DNA of 64,000 bases, from the NCBI RefSeq assembly GCF_036287215.1, contig NZ_CP142860.1:2480001-2544000 (forward strand), read 5' to 3'. The stretch is from Caproiciproducens sp. CPB-2 (lineage in GTDB: Bacteria > Bacillota > Clostridia > Oscillospirales > Acutalibacteraceae). How positions within the stretch are numbered: position 1 is the stretch's first letter; the number at the start of each line of letters is the position of its first letter. Of the stretch, positions 57,356 to 61,037 are shown one piece after another. A model generated the notes under the pieces. It made no database searches and had not been told where the DNA came from. It saw only the letters and a list, made by a program, of their open reading frames with translations. A program made the position numbers and the translations under genes.

Positions 57356-57814
57356 TCAGACGGTATCCTTCTGTACGGCCCGTATGTTCCCGAGAAGCTG
57401 GGAAAGCATTTCCCTGAGGCGAAGGGCCTCTTCCGGAGCAAGGCCCGTACAGCAGAACATTTTCTGAGGAAGGTCCAGAAAATGTTTTTTCAGGCTTCTG
57501 CCCTTTTCCGTCAGACAAACCTGTACACTGCGCTCGTCACGGACACTGCGCACGCGTTCGACAAGCTCCAGCTTTTCCAGCTTTTTCAGAAGCGGGGTCA
57601 GGGTTCCTGAATCCAGAAGCAGCCGGCTTCCCAACTCCGATACGCTGAGATTGTCCTTTTCCCACAGCACCAGCAAAGTGATATACTGCGTATACGTAAG
57701 GCCATACGGTTCGAGGTACGGCTTGTAAAGGCGGATCACTTCCTTTGAGCACGCATAAAGCGCAAAACAAAGCTGGCTGTCAAGCTTTAACAGATCGTCG
57801 GGCCGCACATCCAA
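57356..57814 (-). CDS. ohrR: MarR family peroxide-sensing regulator OhrR
   Basis: 152 aa. The N-terminal LDSQLCFALYAC contains the reactive Cys (Cys16 here, Cys15 in Bacillus OhrR). The wHTH is VSELGSRLLLDSGTLTPLLK, and DERSVQVCLTEKG is the wing. Thiol oxidation by organic peroxide should release it from DNA. The TTG start at 57814 follows AAGGAG at the end of the gpx gene, giving tight coupling. An OhrR box lies upstream of gpx, so the pair is autoregulated. Confidence 0.92.
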   Translation of the reverse strand: MDVRPDDLLKLDSQLCFALYACSKEVIRLYKPYLEPYGLTYTQYITLLVLWEKDNLSVSELGSRLLLDSGTLTPLLKKLEKLELVERVRSVRDERSVQVCLTEKGRSLKKHFLDLPQKMFCCTGLAPEEALRLREMLSQLLGNIRAVQKDTV

Positions 57815-57815
57815 A

Positions 57816-58358
57816 TTACAAACACTCCTTAATTGCGGATTCCATTTCCTCGGGCGTCGTTGTCGGTTCAAAACGTCCGGCAATATTTCCTTCCCTGTCG
57901 ATCAGGAATTTCGTAAAATTCCATTTGATGGAGCTGTCGTTGAACTCTTTTCCGTATTTCGTTTTCAGCATCAGTTCCAGCGTCCTGTTTTTTACGCCCT
58001 TTCCAAAGCCTTCAAAGGCTGTGTGGCCGGTCAGATAGCGGAAGATCGGGTCTGCGTTTTCCCCGCGGACGTCAATTTTCACCGAAAGCGGAAAAGTAAC
58101 CCCATACCGCAGCTTACAGAACTCCTGCACCTCGCTGTTCGTTCCCGGCTCCTGCTCCGCAAACTGATTGCAGGGGAAGCCGATCACCGTGAGACCCTGT
58201 TCGCGATAGGTCTGATAAAGCTTTTCCAGACCTTCGTACTGCGGCGTAAAGCCGCATTTGCTTGCCGTATTGACGAGGACCAGAACCTTGCCTTTTAATT
58301 CTGAAAGCGGAACGGTCTTTCCCTCCATCGTCTGAATGGAATAATCATAAATCGTCAT
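57816..58358 (-). CDS. Glutathione peroxidase family protein (Cys type)
   Basis: 180 aa. The active-site block is NTASKCGFTPQYEGLE with Cys35, followed by FPCNQFAEQEP (Gln) and KWNFTKFLID (Trp, Asn). All four catalytic residues are kept. Such bacterial enzymes usually reduce organic peroxides with thioredoxin. It is the first gene of the gpx-ohrR operon, with promoter and OhrR box directly ahead. Confidence 0.94.
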   Translation of the reverse strand: MTIYDYSIQTMEGKTVPLSELKGKVLVLVNTASKCGFTPQYEGLEKLYQTYREQGLTVIGFPCNQFAEQEPGTNSEVQEFCKLRYGVTFPLSVKIDVRGENADPIFRYLTGHTAFEGFGKGVKNRTLELMLKTKYGKEFNDSSIKWNFTKFLIDREGNIAGRFEPTTTPEEMESAIKECL

Positions 58359-58372
58359 AAAGGATCACCTTT

Positions 58373-58424
58373 CAAATTGTATTTTTTACAATTTGATTGT
58401 ATGCAATTTAATTTACTTTGTCAA
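58373..58424 (-). promoter_or_regulatory. gpx-ohrR promoter with OhrR-type operators
   Basis: On the minus strand TTGACA (58419-58424), 17 bases, TACAAT (58396-58401). The near-palindrome TACAATCAAATTGTA (58387-58401) covers the -10 box and resembles the OhrR box (TACAATT-AATTGTA). A second repeat, CAAATTGTA with TACAATTTG (58373-58395), overlaps it downstream. The -35 box lies inside the end of the flavodoxin gene. Confidence 0.8.
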
Positions 58425-58902
58425 GAGTTAAATTTTTCACCCAGTCCGCGAAGGATTTCCGGGCCTTATCCGGGGAAAGGGGGCTTTTCATGACGGTCTG
58501 AAGAAAGAAGCAGCCGGACACTTCCCCGCCACGCAGCTTCACTCTCTGCGTCAGGGACTGAAAAACGGACTGCGGCTCATGCTCGTCCGCCTGCGTGATA
58601 AATAAATAGACCTTTTTCCCGGAAAAATCCGCCCGTTCCAGAAAGGCATTGACGGCGGGCGTACTCCGGCCCGCCCAGACCGGGCCGCCGAGAAAAACGG
58701 AATCATAACCGTTCAGGGAAAAATCCATCGGCCCGATTTTGCTCTTCAGGCCAAAGACCGCCGAACATGCCGCCATACCGAAGGATTTCCGCGGTTTTGT
58801 CTCTTCAATCCGTTTTAGGTCCCCGCCAATTAATTCGGACAGCTCTTTCACCGCGACCTCCGTGTTCCCCTTCCAGGAATAATAGACAACCAGATTTTTC
58901 AT
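58408..58902 (-). CDS. Flavodoxin-like protein
   Basis: 164 aa. FMN phosphate loop YYSWKGNTEVAVKELSEL and later VFLGGPVWAGRSTPAVNAFL are typical of the flavodoxin/NAD(P)H-quinone oxidoreductase-like group. The start at 58902 follows AAGGA; a longer frame begins at 58932. It ends inside the gpx promoter. Probably an electron carrier or quinone reductase in oxidative-stress defence (inference). Confidence 0.88.
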   Translation of the reverse strand: MKNLVVYYSWKGNTEVAVKELSELIGGDLKRIEETKPRKSFGMAACSAVFGLKSKIGPMDFSLNGYDSVFLGGPVWAGRSTPAVNAFLERADFSGKKVYLFITQADEHEPQSVFQSLTQRVKLRGGEVSGCFFLQTVMKSPLSPDKARKSFADWVKNLTLDKVN

Positions 58903-59249
58903 CTTTGAGCATCCTTTCCGTATCTTTCTCATTTTGTTCCGGCCTGATGATTTTCAATCGGGAATTTTCATTGAGTGATGGGACATCCGGTAAGATTATC
59001 TTTAGATTAGCATAATTAAAAGAGGAATGGTATAAAATTTTGTTTGGAATTTATTAAAATTGTCCCGAATTTCAGTTTCTGTGCCTGCTGTTTCCAAGCC
59101 AACTGTCACTCGACTGAAAATCAGGCGTATGGTTTTGCGCGGAGATGTATTATTTGCAGCAGCCGCAAATGCGTTTTTAAGCGGTCGGAAAAACGCTATA
59201 CAACCATTGCAGAACTGTAAAGAGAATATAAAATATTTTGAAAATCTCT

Positions 59250-59277
59250 TTGCTGTTTGTAAAAATATTGCTATAAT
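59250..59277 (+). promoter_or_regulatory. Promoter of the encapsulated ferritin-encapsulin operon
   Basis: TTGCTG (59250-59255), 16 bases, TATAAT (59272-59277). Confidence 0.7.
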
Positions 59278-59289
59278 ATAAGAAAGGCA

Positions 59290-59341
59290 TTTTGACAGAT
59301 ATTTACAGAAAACAAATTTGATTCCGTCGAATCTGTCAAAA
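59290..59341 (+). promoter_or_regulatory. Inverted repeat in the ferritin-encapsulin leader
   Basis: TTTTGACAGAT (59290-59300) and ATCTGTCAAAA (59331-59341) are perfect inverted arms with 30 bases between. It lies in the 5' leader, just before AGGAGG. It could fold as an RNA stem or bind a dimeric regulator. No known motif. Confidence 0.55.
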
Positions 59342-59369
59342 AAACAATCATAACAGGAGGTTGAGAAAA

Positions 59370-59738
59370 ATGCCGGCTTTTGCAAATCCTTTTCAGGCAA
59401 ACGTTGAAAGGAAATTAACACATGAGGAACTTGTTCAGGCCATCCGTCTGGACATTGCGGGGGAACTGGAAGCCATCTATCTTTATGACGCCCATGTTCA
59501 GGCCACGGACAATGAACTGGCCAAAACGGTCATCAGCGATATCCGCGATGAAGAAAAGGCCCATATCGGTGAATTGATGACGCTGCTTCGGCAGCTGGAC
59601 CCGAAAGAAGCGGAGCTGTTCGCCTCCGGTGAAGCGGAAGTAAGAGAGATGCTGGAGGGGCTGGGAATTTCCGAACCGTCCGCAGAGCCCGCTGCCGACG
59701 CCCCCGGACAGACGGTCGGCAGCCTGCTGAACGAATAA
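59370..59738 (+). CDS. Encapsulated ferritin (EncFtn-type) cargo with encapsulin targeting peptide
   Basis: 122 aa. The two-helix ferritin-like core has the ferroxidase residues in the EncFtn positions: Glu32, Tyr39, Glu62 and His65 (GELEAIYLYDAH; DEEKAHIGEL). A flexible Ala/Pro/Glu linker (about 101-113) leads to a C-terminal TVGSLLNE, the shape of an encapsulin cargo-loading peptide. The start at 59370 has AGGAGG nine bases upstream. It should oxidise Fe2+ inside the shell encoded 25 bp downstream. Confidence 0.92.
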   Translation: MPAFANPFQANVERKLTHEELVQAIRLDIAGELEAIYLYDAHVQATDNELAKTVISDIRDEEKAHIGELMTLLRQLDPKEAELFASGEAEVREMLEGLGISEPSAEPAADAPGQTVGSLLNE

Positions 59739-59763
59739 ATAAATCTGTAAAGGAGCTGATCAT

Positions 59764-60579
59764 ATGGATTATCTTTCAAGAGAAGGTTCCCCGGTACCGC
59801 AGGAGCTTTGGAAACAAATTGACGCTGCCGTAGTGGAATCGGCGCGCCGTATTCTGGCGGGCAGAAGATTCTTACATATTTTCGGGCCTCTCGGCATCGG
59901 AGCGGACAGCATCGCGATTGACGACGCGGACAAAATCGGGGAAATCACCAAAGACGGACTGACGGTCACCGCCGGCAGAAAGCATGTGGAAATCCCCACC
60001 GTTTACGACGACGCCACCCTTTTGGCAAAAGATCTGGAAAGCAGCCGCAAATCCGGTTATCCGGTGGATTTATCCGCCGTTATGGCTTCCGCCGAGGCCT
60101 GCGCCCTGAAAGAGGACCGGCTGATTTTCTTCGGGGCCGAAGGACTGGGCTATGAAGGGCTTCTTACCGCAGCGGGAACAAACCGGATTGAAAAGAAAGA
60201 CTGGTCCGAGGGAGAAAACGCGTTTACCGATATCGCCGCGGCAATCCAGCTGCTGACTTCTAAAAACGTTTACGGCGCTTATGCGCTTGCGGTCAGTCCC
60301 GACCTGTATCTGCAGATGCAGCGGATTCAGCCCGGAACGGGTTTATTGGAAATTGAGCGTGTGAAAAAGCTGCTGAACGGCAATGTTGTCAGCAGCCCTG
60401 TATTGGGAAATGACAAAGCGGTGCTCGTCTGCACCGGTCCGAGAAATATCGATCTGGTGATCGGACAGGACCTTGCAGCCGCTTATCTGGAGCAAAGGGA
60501 CCTCAATCACTGCTTCCGTATTCTGGAGACCGTTCTGCTCCGCATCAAGCGCAGGCAGGCTATCGTCGTTTTTGAATGA
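59764..60579 (+). CDS. Encapsulin shell protein (family 1)
   Basis: 271 aa, typical for family 1. The N-terminal MDYLSREGSPVPQELWKQID and AGRRFLHIFGPLGIG, and the C-terminal DLVIGQDLAAAYLEQ, match the Linocin M18/HK97-fold shell. Sixty or more copies make a hollow compartment that holds cargo with a C-terminal targeting tail, here the EncFtn-type ferritin. AGGAG precedes the ATG. Together they form an iron storage and detoxification nanocompartment. Confidence 0.95.
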   Translation: MDYLSREGSPVPQELWKQIDAAVVESARRILAGRRFLHIFGPLGIGADSIAIDDADKIGEITKDGLTVTAGRKHVEIPTVYDDATLLAKDLESSRKSGYPVDLSAVMASAEACALKEDRLIFFGAEGLGYEGLLTAAGTNRIEKKDWSEGENAFTDIAAAIQLLTSKNVYGAYALAVSPDLYLQMQRIQPGTGLLEIERVKKLLNGNVVSSPVLGNDKAVLVCTGPRNIDLVIGQDLAAAYLEQRDLNHCFRILETVLLRIKRRQAIVVFE

Positions 60580-60662
60580 CCCGAAGCTTTGCCACCGCAC
60601 GGTATCTCTTTTATTTGCTGTTTTATTTATAATAATCAAATGATGGAAATGAGGTTGTAAAA

Positions 60663-61037
60663 ATGTCAAAAGTTGTTTTTTACCGCTGTGAGATTTGCGG
60701 CAATATGGTAGCGCTGATCAGGAGCGGCGGCGGCACACTCACCTGCTGCGGCCAGAACATGACGAAGCTGGAAGCAAACACCACCGACGCCGCGACCGAA
60801 AAGCACGTTCCGTTTATTACAAGGGAAGACGGAAAAATCAAAGTTCAGATCGGTTCCACCATTCACCCCATGCTCCCGGAGCATCATATTGAATGGATTG
60901 CGCTGGAGTCCGGCGACAGGCTGGAAATCGCCTACCTGAAGCCCGGCATGGACCCGAAGGCGGAGTTCAACGACGCCGAATCCGGCACGGTTTACGAGTA
61001 CTGCAATCTTCACGGCCTTTGGAAAGCTGAATTCTAA
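60663..61037 (+). CDS. dfx: Desulfoferrodoxin / superoxide reductase
   Basis: 124 aa, two-domain desulfoferrodoxin. Center I (desulforedoxin-like) has Cys9, Cys12, Cys28 and Cys29. Center II has His48, His68, His74 or His75, Cys114 and His117. It reduces superoxide to hydrogen peroxide without releasing oxygen. It follows the encapsulin gene by 83 bp and has its own ribosome binding site. Peroxide it makes could be handled by the neighbouring gpx. Confidence 0.96.
   Translation: MSKVVFYRCEICGNMVALIRSGGGTLTCCGQNMTKLEANTTDAATEKHVPFITREDGKIKVQIGSTIHPMLPEHHIEWIALESGDRLEIAYLKPGMDPKAEFNDAESGTVYEYCNLHGLWKAEF

Follow-up and report, generated by a model that had tools for sequence, protein, structure and literature searches.

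Encapsulated ferritins (EncFtn) oxidize Fe(II), the encapsulin shell around them stores the mineral, superoxide reductase (SOR) makes H2O2 from superoxide, and rubrerythrin reduces H2O2. The closest solved relatives of the locus described here belong to M. xanthus, in which one shell, EncA, is combined with two types of ferritin, EncB and EncC. The main text of PMC11202242 gives TVGSL-type tails for EncB and EncC (Table 2) and for the IMEF systems, which are iron encapsulins of Firmicutes (see also PMC8346489), whereas SLGIGSLK is its tail form for the EncFtn of R. rubrum and H. ochraceum. The same text reports that oxidative stress raises the expression of the T. maritima and M. xanthus encapsulins, and that water is released when H2O2 replaces O2 as the oxidant in ferroxidation; it places no SOR beside the M. 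xanthus shell. By contrast, a SOR gene stands directly behind the shell gene at the present locus, and each shell is accompanied by a single ferritin.

The locus lies in a 64,000-nucleotide stretch of DNA (the window), which corresponds to C1:2480001-2544000 of the 3,446,181-base, single-contig genome of Caproiciproducens sp. CPB-2 (G000). Its gene cassette, called A, begins with an encFtn gene at 59370..59738 (+ strand), which encodes 122 residues between an ATG at 59370 and the stop at 59738; a mechanically assigned TTG start at 59361 is unnecessary. Position 59250, where an earlier reading of the letters alone (the sequence-only reading) let the feature begin, belongs to the promoter and not to the gene. 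The curated model NF058679 (EncB_fam encapsulated ferritin; 169.1 bits, cut-off 90) assigns the protein to the EncFtn/EncB family. It scores below the cut-offs of TIGR04535 (103.9 bits, cut-off 125) and of NF058678, the model of EncB proper (34 bits, cut-off 210), and barely above that of PF22277 (27.3, cut-off 27). The closest solved relative is M. xanthus EncC (7s8t, E 2.4e-18); the EncFtn of R. rubrum (5da5, E 1.9e-4) is of the same ferritin family and differs in its tail. Glu32, Tyr39, Glu62 and His65, to which the sequence-only reading had drawn attention, occupy the positions named there and align with E, Y, E and H of EncC. We take Glu32, Glu62 and His65, together with Tyr39, to be the residues of the EncFtn ferroxidase site, each in the role presumed for it in the family. 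IMEF was considered as the identity of the cargo and discarded: the protein matches EncFtn-type and COQ7 models only, and there is no ferredoxin among the neighbours scanned.

The ferritin ends with TVGSLLNE (59712..59735, + strand). The proposal that this is a C-terminal targeting peptide is supported by the distribution of the motif among the EncFtn proteins of the loci examined: it is present in all 67 that have an adjoining shell gene and in none of the 39 that do not. Tail and shell go together across EncFtn-like proteins. The proteins counted score more than 100 in an EncFtn profile made for this analysis, a shell gene was regarded as linked if it lay no more than 300 bases away in the same orientation, and the motif was defined as the core [TSR][VI]G[SGAND][LMV] in the last 32 residues, a pattern that was widened after the tails had been seen. 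Nine more shells with a weakly matching ferritin, whose tails are mostly of the GDLK type, are outside the 67, as are four frames scoring below 100, including runs of N in L062 and L063. The tail had been thought to depart from a commoner SLGIGSLK type. Instead, TVGSL is the commonest form of the 67 shell-linked ferritins (36), followed by TIGSL (18) and TVGGL (5), with eight others; the 36 TVGSL and 18 TIGSL tails rule out an unusual type. Because of the complete association with shell genes and the tails given in the main text of PMC11202242, TVGSLLNE is the tail expected of such cargo.

Loci L022, L031, L040, L042, L047-L051, L053-L061, L108, L112-L121, L123 and L125-L132 hold EncFtn-like proteins with neither the tail motif nor a shell gene within 300 bases; among the matches listed, which come from at least 60 loci, some are 72–87% identical in the core. 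The genome of the window itself encodes a 172-residue protein (C1:1149942-1150460; L178 3943-4461, - strand) that seemingly combines two EncFtn-like helical hairpins within a single chain. This tandem protein has neither the tail motif nor an adjoining shell gene, and it is included in the 39.

The stop codon of the ferritin gene is followed after 25 bp by a family 1 encapsulin gene (59764..60579, + strand), in the spacing, order and orientation described before. The 271-residue product belongs to the Linocin_M18/encap_f1 family (NF041155, 281.1 bits, cut-off 100; PF04454, 241.4, above the cut-off), and the adjoining cargo gene with its C-terminal TVGSLLNE is of the kind expected of family 1. 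M. xanthus EncA provides the closest solved shells (E 5.9e-57). T. maritima encapsulin (3dkt) is of the same shell family; however, its match is much weaker and follows far behind (E 5.7e-17). Judged by sequence, the shell and its cargo are a further member of the known EncFtn nanocompartment type.

The third gene (60663..61037, + strand) starts 83 bp past the encapsulin stop and encodes, as had been recognized, a SOR of 124 residues. It is a 2Fe SOR (desulfoferrodoxin) with an N-terminal desulforedoxin-like domain (PF06397, 49.6) and a C-terminal SOR domain (PF01880, 67.8), both above their cut-offs; the score in TIGR00320 is slightly below the cut-off (138.6 versus 146.9). The alignment to 2ji1 spans 4-123 (E 9.7e-36) and includes the motifs YRCEICG, TCCGQ, EKHVP, HPMLPEHHIEW and YCNLHG, which provide the four cysteines of centre I and the four histidines and the cysteine of centre II. 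Which residues of these motifs bind iron at either centre is presumed from general knowledge of desulfoferrodoxins. Both domains are those of a desulfoferrodoxin-type SOR, and it is the position directly behind an encapsulin gene that distinguishes the window SOR. No targeting motif is present in its sequence.

The link between shell and SOR, which the sequence-only reading had proposed from this one locus, holds throughout the genus. Encapsulin genes are present in seven of 11 genomes, at nine loci, and encFtn is upstream and SOR downstream at all nine. SOR is present in all 11 genomes, including the four in which encapsulin was not found, two of which are less than 90% complete. The SOR can do without the shell, as is evident from these four genomes and from the sister loci with SOR alone that are described below. 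A family-wide sample contains shells in three of 200 genomes, all three from this same genus, and in a sample of the class 38 of 391 genomes match the encapsulin search, 36 of them above the cut-off. The class sample gave 40 match rows; the locus was obtained for 30, and the second copy of G000, which is among the other ten, was covered separately. Loci were also obtained for 30 matches of a further search.

A shell tree calculated by a quick method from 80 loci, which vary in length and from which same-contig duplicates had been removed, contains a clade of 24 rows (SH-aLRT 99) that holds every shell with SOR directly downstream. The clade was delimited after the positions of SOR were known. 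SOR follows the shell at 16 of the 24 loci (a short frame of 47 residues at L009) and at none of the 56 outside. Of the remaining eight, four have rubrerythrin instead of SOR and four have neither, one of these uncertainly since the contig of L020 ends 266 bp past the shell; rubrerythrin is downstream of two of the 56 shells outside. The rows with SOR include Lachnospiraceae, Oscillospiraceae, Pectinatus and one member of another family (f11), those of Treponema have rubrerythrin, and that of an Atopobiaceae bin has neither. SOR is thus a frequent operon partner within one shell clade, which is a new observation: in a literature search that reached few subscription papers and no supplements, no publication was found that joins encapsulin with SOR, desulfoferrodoxin or neelaredoxin. 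The term superoxide reductase is absent from the main text of PMC8346489, and superoxide from that of PMC11202242. Two observations concern individual genomes of the wider comparison. In a Lachnospiraceae bin (L064 5997-6618), a damaged-looking EncFtn frame runs into SOR and no encapsulin was found there, which is perhaps another lost shell. A member of the class, G587, has two encapsulins (C1:1061755 and 4209910).

The locus as a whole is probably a standard EncFtn nanocompartment that is co-expressed with SOR. The gene order and the shared promoter suggest that encFtn, encapsulin and SOR would be transcribed from a single promoter at approximately 59250. As in the rest of the family, the TVGSLLNE tail of the ferritin would dock inside the shell, and Fe(II) would enter the shell, be oxidized at the Glu32/Glu62/His65 site, and then be stored. 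Because it has no tail, the SOR is placed in the cytosol, where it would convert superoxide to H2O2. It is possible, if somewhat doubtful, that the oxidation of Fe(II) uses part of the H2O2 made by SOR and at the same time removes Fe(II) that would yield hydroxyl radicals. The remaining H2O2 would be reduced by rubrerythrin, which is found in cassette B (see below) and elsewhere in the clade.

The same shell-and-cargo core would be retained, and only the H2O2 step dropped, if the compartment were a plain EncFtn iron store and its chemistry unconnected with that of SOR, which would be just the next gene in an operon driven by a common oxygen-stress promoter. We give this alternative a little less than an even chance. 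Three sister species that keep SOR without a shell, the lack of a targeting motif on SOR, and the 64 of 80 shell loci without a downstream SOR are all consistent with it; however, adjacency is not needed for co-regulation alone, and the gene order, which occurs twice in this genome, is kept at 16 of the 24 loci in a clade spanning several families. The presence of SOR in the operons of the shell clade points to SOR-made H2O2 as the oxidant of EncFtn. In its widest form, the proposal of a nanocompartment co-expressed with SOR would make the anaerobe shell clade a line leading from superoxide to mineral, in which SOR-made H2O2 is the normal EncFtn oxidant and yields ferric mineral and water, and in which the two shells of G000 are separately wired and have separate tail–pocket pairs. 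We consider this extension rather unlikely.

The genome contains a second complete encFtn-encapsulin-SOR set, which was not visible to the sequence-only reading. The encapsulin gene of this cassette B is at C1:676424-677239, on the strand opposite to that of the window cassette; it is preceded by an encFtn gene with the tail TVGGLLNQ and followed by SOR, and a rubrerythrin gene is 683 bases further. There are no direct repeats between the SOR and rubrerythrin genes. The proteins of cassettes A and B are identical at 97 of 122 positions in the ferritin (79.5%), 172 of 271 in the shell (63.5%) and 100 of 124 in SOR, and two of the eight final residues of the ferritin tails differ. At the DNA level, the similarity of the two cassettes ends at window position 59346, right before the ferritin gene, and therefore the two promoters differ. 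In the promoter of cassette B, the palindrome AATAACAGTTATT comes after a -10-like TATATT; the palindrome is exact in four of the five genus loci aligned, cassette B itself included, and deviates in G010. A search of the whole genome found the palindrome AATAACNGTTATT once, in the B promoter, so no wider regulon is visible. Conceivably, a repressor such as PerR binds the palindrome.

The two cassettes have distinct promoters and slightly distinct tails. The levels of identity between the shells and between the ferritins, and tails that differ at only two of the last eight positions, might allow both ferritins and both shell proteins to mix in hybrid shells, so that the cassettes act as one. 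We regard such mixing as unlikely, because the absence of a DNA match upstream of 59346 means that the regulation probably differs, and because TVGGL is found at all five B-type loci and TVGSL in the A pair, which would fit separate pairs of cargo and shell.

Further cargo with TVG or TIG tails was sought across the genome. The patterns occur at 21 and 24 places, as compared with 35 and 27 for reversed control patterns. Eight of the 21 TVG places could code for TVGS(L/F); in these and in all 24 TIG loci, only the window ferritin ends a convincing gene with the motif. One of the eight is inside a long frame of L003, L183 has a 52-residue frame ending in TVGSF, and at L184 TVGSF is seven residues into a frame without a preceding start codon. 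A sequence containing ACTATCGGCAGTTT is present at 12 places in G000 (for example C1:309087, 464211 and 756364; L188, L190 and L192), each with the same 89-residue frame, which carries TIGSF 19 residues before its end. L188 has no match in Rfam at the gathering score. The repeated sequence is probably a mobile element.

The promoter and leader of cassette A (59206..59357, + strand) are shared with the SOR gene of related species, as indicated by BLAST matches in G001 and G005. Promoter hexamers were read by eye: a -35-like TTGCTG at 59250-59255, a 16-nucleotide spacer, and the -10 element TATAAT at 59272-59277. A scan for consensus promoters did not return this pair and listed instead a weak one at 59238-59266. 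The region matches G001 (59212-59340) and G005 (59213-59315) at approximately 78% in BLAST; in G010, where BLAST gives no match, the correspondence comes from alignment alone. In all three genomes the gene served by the aligned promoter is SOR itself. The leader contains a weak candidate for a hairpin, TTTTGACAGAT...ATCTGTCAAAA (59290..59341, + strand), with a predicted energy of -15 kcal/mol and a z-score of -1.89, which eight of 200 shuffled sequences equal. By eye, its arms are kept in G004, partly kept in G001, and absent from G005 and G010. An Rfam scan of the leader gave nothing near the thresholds and one chance-level match.

The arrangement of the window is kept in G004 with 95% DNA identity. 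By contrast, G001, G005 and G010 have a B-type cassette elsewhere, and at the site of cassette A they have the syntenic SOR, with the aligned promoter before it and lysA behind; neither encFtn nor encapsulin was found at this site in the three genomes. Their SORs form one group with that of the window (SH-aLRT 100). In G001, 119 bases between the promoter and SOR (L168 from 5386) are colinear with window positions 60318-60436, part of the encapsulin gene (+ strand). The local alignment score of 71 is reached by none of 2000 shuffles and none of 72 control stretches (maximum 37 in both), and tblastx gives 7e-6; the match to the B shells is weaker, with scores of 60 for G000 and 50 for G001. A shorter fragment in G005 (60327-60390; L170 from 5627) scores 38, above all 2000 shuffles (maximum 35) and all 72 controls (maximum 33), but it is weak: against the whole insert one of 300 shuffles reached the score, and there is no BLAST match. 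No shell fragment was found in the spacer of G010. From these remnants, the encFtn-encapsulin pair surely once stood at this site in G001, and probably also in G005, and was then lost while SOR and its promoter were kept. The window shell is a dispensable copy, because sister species lost the shell and kept SOR.

It is also conceivable that the ancestor of G000 and G004 acquired the window pair from another lineage, by insertion between the promoter and SOR. The best trees set shell A apart from shell B, either beside R. cellobioparum and its kin or in no resolved position, and the fragments start near the same base, which would fit a single early deletion and subsequent regain. However, AU tests allow A and B to form one clade (p 0.079 for the shell alone, p 0.184 for shell and ferritin), and the shell-gene remnants that G001 and G005 share in position are those of an earlier shell there. 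A foreign origin is thus improbable. The nearly equal fragment starts, 60318 and 60327, may reflect one common deletion followed by a regain in G000 and G004; against this, flank identities place G001 with G000 and G004. The genus is a natural experiment, comprising genomes with two shells (G000 and G004), one shell and a fragment (G001 and G005), one shell (G010, G008 and G009), and none found. SOR is present throughout these states, including the genomes in which no encapsulin was found.

On the opposite strand, upstream of the operon and outside it, are genes for a flavodoxin (58408..58902, - strand; PF12682), a glutathione-peroxidase-family protein (57816..58358, - strand; PF00255) and a MarR-family regulator resembling OhrR (57356..57814, - strand; PF01047). 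The first two families are those named by the sequence-only reading. For the third, the assignment to the MarR family stands, whereas the score in the OhrR model NF052638 (154.7 bits) is below the cut-off of 200; its start was set at 57814 in a frame that is open to 57883. The three genes had been combined with the cassette into an island against peroxide, superoxide and iron stress. Of this island the link to SOR, found at nine of nine genus loci, remains, and the case for the other genes is weakened. In the relatives that were read (G004, G001 and G010), gpx, ohrR and flavodoxin do not occur together with the encapsulin operon, since pflA and pflB, identified by Pfam scan in G004 and by eye in G001 and G010, separate the flavodoxin from the SOR promoter; this stretch is missing from the window. 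Only the flavodoxin of the three neighbours is matched in G001. In G000, the protein closest to the G004 pyruvate formate-lyase shares 58% identity with it and is encoded at another location.

In place of window positions 59061-59206, G004 has a DUF6884 gene and pflA-pflB, and G001 and G010 have pflA-pflB, divergent from the SOR promoter. The DUF6884 gene is whole in G004 (460 residues), with pflA and pflB next to it, and the window retains 86 bases of it (59061..59146, - strand; 87% match to L171 1712-1796, within L171 1326-2708). The segment 59061-59206 is likely a deletion scar. Because relatives have pflA-pflB at this position and the window has a remnant of the DUF6884 gene, a deletion is the best explanation of why gpx, ohrR and flavodoxin lie so near the encapsulin operon.
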